The translations under genes were made by a program, and so were the position numbers. Positions 4,656 to 37,952 of a DNA stretch of 44,263 nucleotides are shown piece after piece (position 1 is the stretch's first letter; each line of letters starts with the position of its first letter). The notes under the pieces were generated by a model. That model did no database searches. It worked only from the letters and a program-made list of their open reading frames with translations, and was not told the DNA's origin. The DNA lies in contig DASPRM010000129.1 of NCBI GenBank assembly GCA_035624455.1, positions 1 through 44,263 of the forward strand, given 5' to 3'. This stretch comes from Terriglobales bacterium (GTDB taxonomy: Bacteria > Acidobacteriota > Terriglobia > Terriglobales > Acidobacteriaceae).

Positions 4656-5807
4656 ATGACCCTCACGCAGTTCGTTGCCAAGAACACGTTTCGGAATCGC
4701 CGCCGCAGCATTCTCACGATTATCAGTATCAGTGTTTCCCTCCTGCTGCTTACGCTGATGATGACCATCTGGCGAGCCTTTTACATAGACAGCGGCCCAC
4801 CGGAATCGGCCCTGCGCCTGATCACGCGCCATCGGGTGTCGCTGACTTTCGCTCTGCCCATGGCCTACCGTGAGAAGATTCGCGCCATTCCTGGTGTGGT
4901 CAACGTCGCTCCCGAGAACTGGTTTGGCGGCAGGTGGAAGGACGACAAGCCAGAAAACTTCTTTCCTCAGTTCGGAACCGATCCGGAAGAGATCACCAAG
5001 GTCTACACCGAATGGAGAATTCCCCCTGATCAGTTTCAGACCTGGATCCACGATCGGACCGGCGCGCTGGTCGGCCGCACGTTGGCGAATAAACATGGCT
5101 GGAAGCTTGGCGACCGCATCGTGCTGCAGGGAACGATTTTCCCGACCAACCTGGAACTTAGCATTCGCGCCATCTATGACACCGACGACCCCGACGCTGC
5201 AAATGTTGTGTATTTCAATCAGAAGTATGTTTATGAATCGGTCAAATACATGAAAGATCAGGTCGGAGTCTTCGCCATTCGCGTGGATTCTCCAGAAGCC
5301 GTTCCCAGGGTGGCCAAAGCCGTCGACGATATGTTCCGCAACTCGCCCCAGCCTACGAAGACCGAAACCGAGAAGGCATTCGGTCTGAGTTTTGTTGCCA
5401 TGCTGGGAAATGTAAAGGCGTTCATCCTGGGGATTTCGCTGGCGGTGGTGTTCGCGATTCTGCTGGTTTCCGCCAATACTATGGCGATGTCAATCCGCGA
5501 GCGGGTACGCGAAGTGGCGGTGCTTAAGACACTCGGATTCACGCGTGGCGGCATCCTGGCATTGTTTGTGGGTGAGGCGATCTCGCTGGCGCTGGTGGGC
5601 GGTATTTTAGGAGCGCTGCTCGCCACATTTCTAGTGAGAGCAATTGCCGAGAGTGGACAGTTTTTCGGCCCTGGTCTTAGGGTGACATTTCCCACAATGG
5701 TGGTCGCCCTGCTGGTCGCCGCTTTTGTGGGCTTCGCCAGCGCGTTTCTGCCTTCTTACCGGGCGTCTTCGCTGAATATTGCCGAGGGACTGCGGCATTT
5801 GGGCTAG
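4656..5807 (+). CDS. ABC transporter permease, FtsX type
   Basis: 383 residues. A basic N-terminus (KNTFRNRRRS) leads into the first membrane helix (about 18-40), a periplasmic domain of roughly 210 residues, and three C-terminal helices near 255-285, 300-330 and 345-370. MSIRERVREVAVLKTLGFTR is the conserved cytoplasmic loop that contacts the ATPase, and the tail is YRASSLNIAEGLRHLG. GGAG sits five bases before the ATG. It is the first gene of a co-directional set (permease, permease, adaptor, ATPase) with short gaps, so it probably forms a heteromeric permease pair with the next gene. Confidence 0.9.
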   Translation: MTLTQFVAKNTFRNRRRSILTIISISVSLLLLTLMMTIWRAFYIDSGPPESALRLITRHRVSLTFALPMAYREKIRAIPGVVNVAPENWFGGRWKDDKPENFFPQFGTDPEEITKVYTEWRIPPDQFQTWIHDRTGALVGRTLANKHGWKLGDRIVLQGTIFPTNLELSIRAIYDTDDPDAANVVYFNQKYVYESVKYMKDQVGVFAIRVDSPEAVPRVAKAVDDMFRNSPQPTKTETEKAFGLSFVAMLGNVKAFILGISLAVVFAILLVSANTMAMSIRERVREVAVLKTLGFTRGGILALFVGEAISLALVGGILGALLATFLVRAIAESGQFFGPGLRVTFPTMVVALLVAAFVGFASAFLPSYRASSLNIAEGLRHLG

Positions 5808-5841
5808 AACACTGAGAACAGAGGAACGGGAGCAATTTTGC

Positions 5842-7002
5842 ATGGCGATTCCGATTTCCTACAACATCCGTAATCTGCGTTTGCGGCTGGGAGCAACTGT
5901 GATGACCGCGCTCGGCATTGCCCTGACGGTCGCGATTGCCATCTTCATCATGGCGCTGCTGAGCGGACTCAAGCAGGCGTTTGCGAGTACCGGCAATGCG
6001 CTGAACGTCATGGCGATGCGCAAGGGATCCGACTCCGAACTCTCCAGCATTATCAGCCGCGAGCAGTTTGGCGTGATCAAGGATCTACCCGGAATCGCGA
6101 AGGATTCCCACGGTGATCCCCTGGCTTCAGGCGAGATGATGGTGGCGATCGTGCTGCCGCGCTCGGACGGAACCGGCGAAACCAACGTCAGCGTTCGAGG
6201 CATGAATCCTGTGGGCTTTGAGATGCGCCCCGAAATCAAACTCGTCGAGGGTCGCTGGTTCGCAACCGGACAACGCGAAGTCGTCGTCAGCAGGTCGATC
6301 AGCAAACGCTTCGCGAATGCCAACATTGGCAATACTCTGCAGTTTGGTAAAGGATTGTGGACGGTGGTAGGGGTCTTTGACGGTGCCGGCTCTGCCCACG
6401 ATTCTGAAATTTGGGCTGACGTCAATCAGATGGCTTCCGATTTTGATCGCCCAGTCTTTTCCTCGGTCGTCTTGCAGGCTAGTGATGCGGTCGCGGCCGA
6501 TGCGCTCGCCAATCGCTTGAGCGATGACCAGCGGCTTAAGCTGGACGGCATGTCAGAGAACAGCTACTTCGACAAGCAAACCCGGAGCGGCGCCGCGATC
6601 AAATTTGTAGGGACGCTGGTGGCCATCATCATGGCGATTGGCTCCTGCTTCGCAGCTATGAACACGATGTATGCGGCGGTGGCCTATCGGGGGCGGGAAA
6701 TTGCCACGCTGCGTGTTCTTGGTTTCTCGCGGCCAAGCATCCTCACGTCTTTTGTCTTCGAAGCGTTGTTAATTTCGCTGGTCGGGGCCGTAATAGCGGT
6801 GATTCTGATGCTCCCATTCAACGGCCTGACCACCGGCACCTCGAACCAGGTGACCTTCAGCGAGGTAATTTTTCAGATGAGGATGACTCCGGCCGTGATT
6901 GCGACGGCCATTCTGTTTGCAGCCCTTATGGGAGTGCTGGGCGGTCTGGCGCCGGCCTGGCATGCGGCAAGGCAGAATATTCTGGCAGCCTTGCGAGGAT
7001 AA
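5842..7002 (+). CDS. ABC transporter permease, FtsX type (second subunit)
   Basis: 386 residues from ATG 5842, chosen because GGGAG lies upstream and the membrane-protein sequence starts there; the open frame continues upstream into the previous gene without meaning. The first helix is at about 20-42 (VMTALGIALTVAIAIFIMAL), followed by a periplasmic domain that is rich in small beta elements (VVVSRSISKRFANANIG), then three helices. The coupling loop YRGREIATLRVLGFSRPS and tail APAWHAARQNILAALRG are typical. It is 34 bp from the preceding permease, and the two are probably a LolC/LolE-like or MacB-like heterodimer. Confidence 0.9.
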   Translation: MAIPISYNIRNLRLRLGATVMTALGIALTVAIAIFIMALLSGLKQAFASTGNALNVMAMRKGSDSELSSIISREQFGVIKDLPGIAKDSHGDPLASGEMMVAIVLPRSDGTGETNVSVRGMNPVGFEMRPEIKLVEGRWFATGQREVVVSRSISKRFANANIGNTLQFGKGLWTVVGVFDGAGSAHDSEIWADVNQMASDFDRPVFSSVVLQASDAVAADALANRLSDDQRLKLDGMSENSYFDKQTRSGAAIKFVGTLVAIIMAIGSCFAAMNTMYAAVAYRGREIATLRVLGFSRPSILTSFVFEALLISLVGAVIAVILMLPFNGLTTGTSNQVTFSEVIFQMRMTPAVIATAILFAALMGVLGGLAPAWHAARQNILAALRG

Positions 7003-35964: not shown

Positions 35965-36840
35965 ATGAAGCTGGTTGCCAAATTTAACTTGATACTCGTG
36001 ATTTTATTCGGCGTTGGTCTTGCCGTGATCGCGTACATGTCCTACAGCTTCCTCATGTCGAACGCGCGCGATCAGGTTCTGCAACAGGCTCAGTTGATGG
36101 TCGAGAGTGCCAGTTCGACTCGCGAATACACAGCGCAGGAGCTGACGCCGCTTCTGGAAGAAAATCCGCGGCACCTAACGACCTTCTTGCCGCAAACGAT
36201 TCCTTTCTATGCTGCGACGGTGACTTTTGCTCGCCTGCACGGGAAATATCCGGACTACACATACAAGGAAGCCGCACTTAATCCTTCCAATCCCCGCGAC
36301 CGGGCCGTGGAATGGGAGTCAGACTTGATTCAGTATTTCCGCAATCATCCCGGGCAAAGGGAACTTGTAGGTGAACGCGAAACCCCGACAGGACGCTCTC
36401 TGTACCTGGCTCACCCTATTGCAGTTGGGAAGGAATGTCTGGACTGTCACGATCGTCCAGAAACCGCTCCGGCAACGATTGTGCAAACCTATGGCACTGC
36501 CAACGGTTTTGGCTGGAAGCTGAATGAGATCAACGCTGCGCAAATCGTATCCGTGCCCATGACAGTTCCGGTAGGGATCGCAAATCGGGCATTCCGCCGT
36601 CTGATGACGTATCTAACCGTGATCTTCCTGCTGACGCTGGCGGCTATGGATGCAGCGCTGTACTACATGGTGATCCGGCCATTGCGCCGACTCTCGCACG
36701 CAGCGGACAAGATCAGCAAAGGGGACAAGGATTTACCCGAGTTGCCGGTTCACAGCACCGATGAGATAGGCACAGTGACTGCTTCTTTCAACCGCATGTG
36801 TGTGAGCTTGTCGAAGGCGCTGAAGATGCTGAATGAGTGA
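35965..36840 (+). CDS. Membrane c-type-haem sensor (DUF3365) with HAMP domain
   Basis: 291 residues: TM1 (8-28), an extracytoplasmic DUF3365/Tll0287-like domain (about 32-205), TM2 (214-236) and a HAMP domain (238-288) at the very end. The sensor domain contains a CLDCH haem c attachment motif (Cys158, Cys161, His162), so haem should be covalently bound. Domains of this type are thought to sense redox state or small gases. There is no kinase, cyclase or methyl-accepting domain after HAMP, so output must go through a partner. AAGGAG lies seven bases before the ATG. It ends eight bases from the end of the Ser/Thr kinase gene on the opposite strand. Confidence 0.88.
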   Translation: MKLVAKFNLILVILFGVGLAVIAYMSYSFLMSNARDQVLQQAQLMVESASSTREYTAQELTPLLEENPRHLTTFLPQTIPFYAATVTFARLHGKYPDYTYKEAALNPSNPRDRAVEWESDLIQYFRNHPGQRELVGERETPTGRSLYLAHPIAVGKECLDCHDRPETAPATIVQTYGTANGFGWKLNEINAAQIVSVPMTVPVGIANRAFRRLMTYLTVIFLLTLAAMDAALYYMVIRPLRRLSHAADKISKGDKDLPELPVHSTDEIGTVTASFNRMCVSLSKALKMLNE

Positions 36841-36848
36841 TGCGGGTT

Positions 36849-37952
36849 CTAGGAACCGTTCACCGGCTTGGAACGCAAGAACCGCTCGCGCGCCTGGCTG
36901 GAGTCGATTTCCTCTGCCAGAGAGCGGTAAAGCTCGTCGAGGGTCGCATTCTTGACCGCGGCACGCTTTACGATCACCTTGGCAATAGGTCCCACGTACT
37001 CAGCAAGGTCTTTGCTGACACGCTCCAGCACAGCAGGCTCGAAAGCATGGTTGCCGGCTCTCGGGGATACTGGGCCTATCTGAGAAGTTGTCGCGCTCCC
37101 CCTGGAGAGAGGCGCGGGTTTTTGCAGACTTGCGGTTTGTGCCATGCGGACAGCGTCCAGTGCCTGCAGGAATTCCTCTGCCGACTGGAAACGTTCGCCC
37201 GGACTCTTAGCTAACGCTTTAAGAACGATTGCGGAGAGCTCAGCCGAAACGTCGGGGTTTAACTCTGAGGGCGGCCGCGGCGCCTCCTTCAGGTGAGCAG
37301 TCAGCAACGCATACTCGCCCTTGCCGTAAAACGGCACCCGTCCCGTAATTACTTCGTATAAGGTGACCCCCAGTGAATAGATGTCGGACCTCAGGTCTAC
37401 CTTTTCACCGCTCACCTGCTCGGGCGACATGTAGTGAATCGACCCCAATACGGCTCCGGATGACGTGAGCCCGGCCTCGCGATTGCTGGCCGCCAACCCG
37501 AAGTCGAGTAGCTTCGCCTGCCCGTCCGCCGTGATCATGATGTTCGAGGGCTTGATATCCCGGTGCACTACGCCACGGCGATGGGCATAAGCCAATGATC
37601 CCAGCACCTGCGATATGTAGTCGAGGCCTTGCCACAAGCTGATGCGCCCTCTCTTGGCGCCCAAGGTCTCGCCTTCCACGAACTCCATGACCATGACCAA
37701 CTGGTCCTGGTGTTGGAACGCAGTGTGAAGCAGCGCGATATTGGGGTGATGAAGGCTGGCGACGACTCGGACTTCGCGAGTGAATCGCTCTGCGAGTTCC
37801 TGGGTCTGTCGGAGGTCTGGCAGAAGGATCTTCAGTGCCTCGACACGCTGAGAGATACGATGGCGGACCTTGAAGATCTTGCCTATGCCACCTGCTCCCA
37901 GCTCCCCGATTACCTCGTATTCACCGATCAGATCTCCGACTGCAATCGACAT
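36849..37952 (-). CDS. Soluble Ser/Thr protein kinase (Hanks type)
   Basis: 367 residues. Kinase domain about 12-275: glycine loop IGELGAGGIGKIFKV, ATP Lys41 in VEALKIL, catalytic HRDIKPSN (Asp132), DFG (150-152), activation loop to HYMSPEQV (APE equivalent) and SDIYSLGVTLYE. There is no membrane helix and no PASTA repeat, unlike PknB. The last 60 residues form a conserved-looking helical module (YVGPIAKVIVKRAAV, LDELYRSLAEEI) that I recall from other bacterial kinases and cyclases. The gene lies tail to tail with the haem sensor. No strong Shine-Dalgarno site precedes ATG 37952. Confidence 0.93.
   Translation of the reverse strand: MSIAVGDLIGEYEVIGELGAGGIGKIFKVRHRISQRVEALKILLPDLRQTQELAERFTREVRVVASLHHPNIALLHTAFQHQDQLVMVMEFVEGETLGAKRGRISLWQGLDYISQVLGSLAYAHRRGVVHRDIKPSNIMITADGQAKLLDFGLAASNREAGLTSSGAVLGSIHYMSPEQVSGEKVDLRSDIYSLGVTLYEVITGRVPFYGKGEYALLTAHLKEAPRPPSELNPDVSAELSAIVLKALAKSPGERFQSAEEFLQALDAVRMAQTASLQKPAPLSRGSATTSQIGPVSPRAGNHAFEPAVLERVSKDLAEYVGPIAKVIVKRAAVKNATLDELYRSLAEEIDSSQARERFLRSKPVNGS

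Follow-up and report, generated by a model that had tools for sequence, protein, structure and literature searches.

The STAC domain is a four-helix bundle of 2 alpha-hairpins (PMC4834066). Stand-alone STAC proteins have 60 to 90 residues and an LGPx(x)A motif and are often genomically coupled to Af1503-like receptors, in which HAMP is the sole cytosolic part; translational coupling joins Af1502 to Af1503, a HAMP-terminal receptor, and STAC also links SLC5 transporters to histidine kinases (PMC4834066). Cryo-EM of CbrA shows STAC packed against the membrane module, and a role as a coupling element relaying motion was proposed for it (PMC13022988); counting against a relay, CbrA/CrbS variants lacking STAC showed no obvious difference in growth (PMC5715377). 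The role of STAC has been termed unknown (PMC5715377) and unclear (PMC13022988), and Af1503, a model HAMP receptor, is without a recognizable effector (PMC4834066). On the sensor side, sCache_heme NO sensors are characterized by a Cache domain lacking an axial Cys and by a complex that is stable with NO and not with O2. A membrane sCache_heme-HAMP protein, Target 2 of P. azotoformans, binds NO (koff 6.25e-4 per second; PMC12889525, 2026).

The STAC domain and its pairing with HAMP-terminal receptors in archaea are already known, as are SLC5-STAC kinases and the NO-sensing role of sCache_heme. In the literature searched on STAC, HAMP, DUF3365, and Tll0287, we found no STAC-tailed soluble effectors, no bacterial pairing of STAC with HAMP-terminal receptors, and no partner for HAMP-only sCache_heme proteins; the founding paper (J Mol Biol 2015) may describe fused forms and thus contain part of this already.

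The receptor and kinase genes

Within a stretch of 44,263 nucleotides, referred to in its entirety as the window, we identified a receptor gene and a kinase gene that converge on each other (Table 1). The receptor matched PF11845 (E 4.8e-36; 124.8 bits against a Pfam cut-off of 24.1) and HAMP (E 1.1e-12, Pfam), has 2 hydrophobic segments, and ends at a stop codon 13 residues past the HAMP match. HAMP is its sole cytosolic part, as in Af1503-like C-terminally shortened receptors, and the sequence-only reading of a sensor that ends at HAMP with no output domain was thereby borne out. Cysteines were identified at residues 158, 161, and 279 only, the last lying after the second transmembrane (TM) segment, so the Cache domain has no distal (axial) Cys ligand. 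By analogy, the signal is probably NO or the redox state; this ligand is proposed because the membrane sCache_heme-HAMP protein of PMC12889525 holds NO. An AF2 model of the sensor (pLDDT 48, pTM 0.30) was too poor for structure search.

Table 1. Features of the receptor and kinase genes, with positions given in the window
Feature	Positions	Strand	Evidence or remark
Output-less receptor, 291 aa: TM - sCache_heme (PF11845) - TM - HAMP - stop	35965..36840	+	
sCache_heme / DUF3365 / Tll0287-like extracytoplasmic domain, residues 33-198	36061..36558	+	
CXXCH c-heme attachment motif CLDCH, residues 158-162	36436..36450	+	sequence
HAMP domain, residues 234-278	36664..36798	+	
HAMP AS2 C-terminal end RMCVSLSKA, residues 277-285	36793..36819	+	fits R-M-x-x-S-L-x-x-A signature; putative docking surface
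Gap between the 2 convergent stop codons, 8 bp	36841..36848	.	
Soluble Hanks-type Ser/Thr kinase with C-terminal STAC-like module, 367 aa	36849..37952	-	
STAC-like module, residues 303-362	36867..37046	-	VGPIA = (L/I/V)GPxA motif
Protein kinase domain, residues 12-262	37167..37919	-	Pkinase E 2.8e-52

The kinase has the GAGG, VEALK, HRD, and DFG motifs, and the best-scoring solved kinases for its kinase domain were PknB and PknA. It scored below the cut-off of the PknB/Stk1 equivalog NF033483 (296.9 bits against 450), the match spanning residues 10 to 290 only, and PASTA repeats had no Pfam match in it. No hydrophobic segment was identified in the kinase with a Kyte-Doolittle window, and no Pfam match was found to its C-terminal module, in agreement with the earlier description of a kinase that has no sensor of its own and carries a distinctive C-terminal module. 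The tail-to-tail arrangement with eight bases between the genes was likewise confirmed. A single gene that had been split or frameshifted was considered and rejected, the pair being convergent in the window and divergent in 1 other locus.

Identity of the kinase tail

The best PDB match of the receptor HAMP was Af1503 of Archaeoglobus fulgidus, which we take to be a receptor without output, and its neighbor Af1502 was for that reason named for checking before the structure search. With profile A4 of the module (34 rows, built from the window, the MAG L002, and genomes of 2 bacterial groups), Af1502 (5a1q) came first of 177,635 PDB sequences at E = 3.2e-4, aligned over 41 residues only, and the next match, an unrelated one, stood at 0.068. 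Profile A3, which also held 2 rows from 1 Skermanella plasmid, again placed Af1502 first of 177,635 sequences (E 0.016); the narrow first profile A1, consisting of nine module copies, did not list Af1502 and gave hydrogenase and other unrelated matches instead. In the 34 rows of A4, the G and P of the GPxA motif are invariant, and the L is often replaced by I, V, or other residues. From its sequence, the tail module of approximately 60 residues is classified as a divergent STAC domain.

An existing Pfam or NCBIfam family for the module was considered and rejected, as none of the families listed matched more than 1 of 25 members; Mer2, in 1 row, had the lowest E value (3.7e-4). The AF2 model of the module, made from the window and 4 MAG copies, reached a pLDDT of 86.6 and has 3 DSSP helices against 4 in Af1502. 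Foldseek placed 5a1q first among 350,542 chains at a level that was not significant (E 1.7, TM 0.55 to 0.56), and VIA-align gave the module and Af1502 a Z of 5.0, tied with the unrelated folds of NorQ and KIX, so that fold alone decides nothing. The window pair has no SLC5 domain and carries the module as a C-terminal tail, unlike the CbrA subclass, in which SLC5 stands before STAC and two-component domains after it. In the gammaproteobacterial set, every A1 and A4 match lay in a frame shorter than an SLC5-STAC histidine kinase.

Pairing of the module with HAMP-terminal receptors

A full-length sensor was identified in 4 of 60 relatives, and the same convergent kinase with the same tail stood beside it in 4 of 4, with identities of 56% to 61% for the sensor and 48% to 57% for the kinase. 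Together with the window's own genome, 5 of 61 genomes had a full-length sensor and 5 of 5 had the tailed convergent kinase, at gaps of 8 to 344 bp. The recurrence of the convergent tailed kinase in all 4 sensor-bearing relatives indicates that the pair is not a product of chance, and chance neighbors were rejected on the recurrent pairing across genomes. Further, in an Acidiferrobacterales MAG (Gammaproteobacteria; 49% identity), 1 receptor is flanked by a kinase and a class III cyclase, each bearing 2 copies of the module.

The A1 profile matched in 14 of 199 genomes of the window's phylum and in 25 of 274 genomes of the gammaproteobacterial set. A HAMP-terminal neighbor, ending 5 to 17 residues past HAMP by a local HAMP model, was identified at 14 of 14 loci in the phylum and at 24 of 26 loci in the 25 gammaproteobacterial genomes. 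At 1 of the 2 exceptions (G340), the module gene lies 145 bp from the contig start; the other (G415/L134) was rejected as a spurious match, its frame resembling a CorA-type transporter by eye and the match being gone with A4. Searches made after the pairing rule had been set down gave 34 loci, all of which obey it: 28 of 28 new A3 loci (396 genomes of the window's phylum; 27 neighbors within 400 bp and 1 at 983 bp) and 6 of 6 new A4 loci (gammaproteobacterial set). The 6 plasmid loci, from Skermanella and Rhodovulum (Alphaproteobacteria) and Caballeronia and Paraburkholderia (Betaproteobacteria), also had a HAMP-terminal neighbor in every case, five of them having been found by module and receptor and 1 by receptor alone.

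The sequence-only reading had named co-occurrence across genomes as one check of its proposal and its absence as a refutation, and co-occurrence proved near complete: at 82 of 84 module loci, a gene ending 5 to 20 residues after HAMP lies within 1 kb of the module gene. The 84 loci comprise the 14 of the phylum, 4 relatives, 26, 28, the 6 on plasmids, and 6; since close relatives occur among them (e.g., G560/G655, G179/G221, and G088/G100/G125), they are not all independent. All 16 receptors checked against Pfam across the sets had a HAMP over the cut-off near the C-terminus. The receptor frame is broken in at least 3 loci (L071, L114, and L127). Among relatives of the window's family, the kinase frame is in pieces at L221 and L222 and the receptor runs over more than 1 frame at L071, and these are probably decaying copies of the pair. 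At L124, the full-length receptor (5191-6063) is accompanied by a second, shorter frame (2431-2829) that encodes just the C-terminal half of such a receptor and is a partial duplicate.

Variation among effectors and sensors

The tail is also carried by cyclases, TIR proteins, and other effectors, a distribution absent from the sequence-only reading. We identified the module in Ser/Thr kinases and class III cyclases, each with 1 or 2 copies and tandem copies being common in both, in TIR_2 proteins of 2 genomes, in DUF4388 proteins, and in Robl_LC7 (Roadblock) proteins, of which 1 was over and 1 below the Pfam cut-off. Other module proteins had a weak ACT-like match below the cut-off or were small proteins without a Pfam match. 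The input domains of the receptors include DUF3365, dCache_1, dCache_3, sCache_3, and others, and the genes are convergent in the window's own family, co-directional in most other loci, and divergent once. Effectors and sensors swap, while the module and the HAMP at the receptor end stay constant.

The HAMP-terminal receptors share a signature at the AS2 end, R-M-x-x-S-L-x-x-A, with R in 99%, S in 93%, and A in 91% of 73 unique sequences; fused HAMPs (n = 31) had R in 55% at the first position and mostly E (48%) at the S position, a comparison that is biased, the local HAMP model having been derived from the terminal class and the fused HAMPs compared numbering just 31. The fused HAMP of G000 (RMRQS) fits part of the signature. 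The HAMP of Af1503 fits the signature of the HAMP-terminal receptors.

Several loci have arrangements of their own. At L002 (3957-8055), L116 (5917-9867), and L118 (4600-8594), 1 output-less heme receptor lies between a STAC-kinase and a STAC-cyclase, and 1 sensor may drive 2 outputs there; the kinase and receptor are spaced by approximately 0.5 kb, with a small gene in this interval in L002 and L116, that of L002 being IalB-like at E 0.0011, below the cut-off. In 2 genomes of the window's family (L074:7421-8170 and L215:3314-4201), a TIR_2-STAC gene is convergent with a DUF3365-HAMP receptor, a possible heme-sensor-controlled TIR protein. Gene triples of kinase, small STAC protein, and HAMP-terminal receptor were identified at L238 (2132-5057) and L241 (1963-5013), where the small STAC protein could bridge the kinase and the receptor as an adaptor of its own.

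Type VI secretion systems (T6SSs) have a threonine phosphorylation switch. We identified T6SS genes (tagF, tssM, tssH, hcp, or tssBC) within 4 kb of 5 of the 6 plasmid pairs of STAC-kinase and DUF3365-HAMP receptor (L175, L176, L179, L181, and L182, from Skermanella, Caballeronia, and Paraburkholderia), and a PP2C phosphatase gene follows the kinase in 2 of the 6 plasmid loci. The plasmid pairs may be a split version of this switch, and the T6SS proximity suggests one use of split kinases.

Controls and counter-examples

No DUF3365 or HAMP-terminal neighbor was identified up to 5 kb on either side of any of the 7 closest kinases in which no module is visible, and as these kinases appear to bear a membrane segment of their own, they represent anchored relatives rather than matched soluble kinases. 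They are the remaining matches of the kinase search at E <= 1e-70 (L157 to L163); six are complete and module-less by A4, and that of G015 (L159) is cut at residue 429 by the contig end. Their flanks measure 2.4 to 5.0 kb, with none downstream for L159.

We also compared the 45 Pfam HAMP matches of 4 module-bearing genomes (G000, G195, G113, and G152). Only 4 of them end their protein 9 to 13 residues later, and these are the 4 that adjoin a module; the other 41 continue for 217 to 461 residues. By counting, the chance of this exact 4-of-45 match is 1 in 148,995, in genomes that had been chosen for holding a module.

HAMP-terminal receptors away from modules were identified as well. From the PF11845 matches listed, 28 loci away from modules were taken, with open frames of 225 to 433 aa (not all matches in this size range); the protein stops at HAMP in 2 of the 28 (L145 and L146), a count for which the local HAMP model could miss weak HAMPs. 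The gammaproteobacterial L145 has no module gene on its 3.2-kb contig, and downstream of the receptor of L146 lies a kinase truncated by the end of the contig. On a plasmid of Rippkaea orientalis (L178:4974-5894), a HAMP-terminal DUF3365 receptor has no module gene within the 8.5 kb read; it is either an orphan or has its partner encoded elsewhere. In Kovacikia, the DUF3365 chain extends well beyond the HAMP-like part, and no module lies nearby, as expected.

Proposed mechanism and alternatives

The explanation we favor, with a probability of roughly 0.77, is that the 2 genes encode halves of 1 receptor kinase, with STAC docked on HAMP. That the pair are 2 halves of 1 such kinase had been proposed from the letters alone, and it gained support from the co-occurrence, from the lack of pairing in the 7 module-less kinases, and from the STAC homology of the tail. 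The receptor half, a c-heme Cache-TM-HAMP protein and presumably a dimer, would respond to a signal on the outer side of the inner membrane, with nitric oxide or the redox state the most likely candidates. For the soluble kinase half, we infer that the STAC-family tail would bind physically to the cytoplasmic HAMP, probably at its AS2 end, and that this docking would bring the kinase to the receptor and relay the HAMP switch to it, thereby regulating the kinase. A two-fold symmetric HAMP would take 2 STAC copies, in tandem in 1 chain or 1 per chain of a dimer, and room for 2 STACs on a HAMP dimer would fit the tandem copies as well as dimeric single copies. The same plug and socket would serve other outputs (class III cyclase, TIR, DUF4388, Roadblock, and perhaps ACT-like) and other Cache inputs. 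As a counterpoint, convergent genes cannot share 1 promoter.

The site of docking is the element for which another reading retains most weight, unlikely as we consider it: STAC would dock on the transmembrane or juxtamembrane part of the receptor rather than on HAMP, or would act back on the kinase alone. In CbrA, the tips of STAC are inserted into the base of the transporter on its cytoplasmic side (PMC13022988), which speaks for such docking, but HAMP is the cytoplasmic part common to the varied receptors, and it is the AS2 end of HAMP that bears the common signature.

It is improbable that the tail serves as a dimerization or folding module of the effectors and that the receptor shares only regulation or a pathway with them, without contact. 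Tandem copies, common in kinases and cyclases, would suit a self-association module, yet Af1502 is monomeric in solution (PMC4834066). The convergence of the genes in the window would suit the absence of contact; nevertheless, the module tracks the HAMP-terminal receptor and not 1 effector class, close kinases without the module are also without the receptor, and the receptor has no other output.

We give very little credence to a heme redox protein or NO scavenger with a vestigial HAMP and an unrelated kinase kept by synteny, for although close to half of all sCache_heme domains occur alone and probably have redox activity (PMC12889525), the 1 membrane sCache_heme-HAMP protein tested bound NO like a sensor (PMC12889525), the receptors have a conserved HAMP AS2, the pairing holds across classes and phyla despite differing orientation, sensors, and effectors, and loss of the kinase beside a kept sensor was not seen in the 5 of 5 genomes with full-length sensors.

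Implications

We lean toward the wider view that STAC is a general plug allowing HAMP-terminal receptors of bacteria and archaea to drive a range of interchangeable soluble effectors in trans. If this is true, these proteins would form a split, modular class of transmembrane signaling, parallel to two-component systems and operating with no histidine kinase phosphotransfer, that takes in NO- or redox-responsive Ser/Thr kinases, cyclases, and TIR proteins and would give a function to the STAC domain and to output-less HAMP receptors. The STAC-tailed effectors beside such receptors make the questions around Af1503, STAC, and sCache_heme-HAMP proteins testable with 2 purified proteins. Further, the pair is a possible small natural plug-and-socket pair for synthetic receptors, and the plasmid loci give a hint of NO- or redox-gated control at some type VI secretion loci.

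Comparison with known systems

The window kinase has the kinase domain of PknB-type transmembrane kinases, whereas its chain lacks their TM and PASTA parts, and the sensor would come in trans. LapD is a receptor with an output fused to HAMP in the same chain, and its HAMP relays an outside signal; the HAMP relay is alike, and the output in the same chain is unlike the window. Like the window receptor, P. azotoformans Target 2 has a c-heme Cache domain, 2 TM helices, HAMP, and no axial Cys, and the redox-type Target 1 of PMC12889525 differs from the window receptor in its Cys ligand. No partner effector is named for Target 2 in the available part of PMC12889525; the window receptor has a proposed partner. 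In CbrA/CrbS, STAC likewise stands between a membrane input and a catalytic output (PMC13022988, PMC5715377), although these are single polypeptides with an SLC5 input and STAC in mid-chain, whereas the window has 2 genes and a C-terminal STAC. The Af1503-Af1502 pair likewise places a receptor ending at HAMP beside a gene for a STAC with a GPxA motif; that archaeal STAC is a separate protein of 68 residues and carries no effector, whereas in the window STAC forms the tail of a kinase and the sensor is of the c-heme type.
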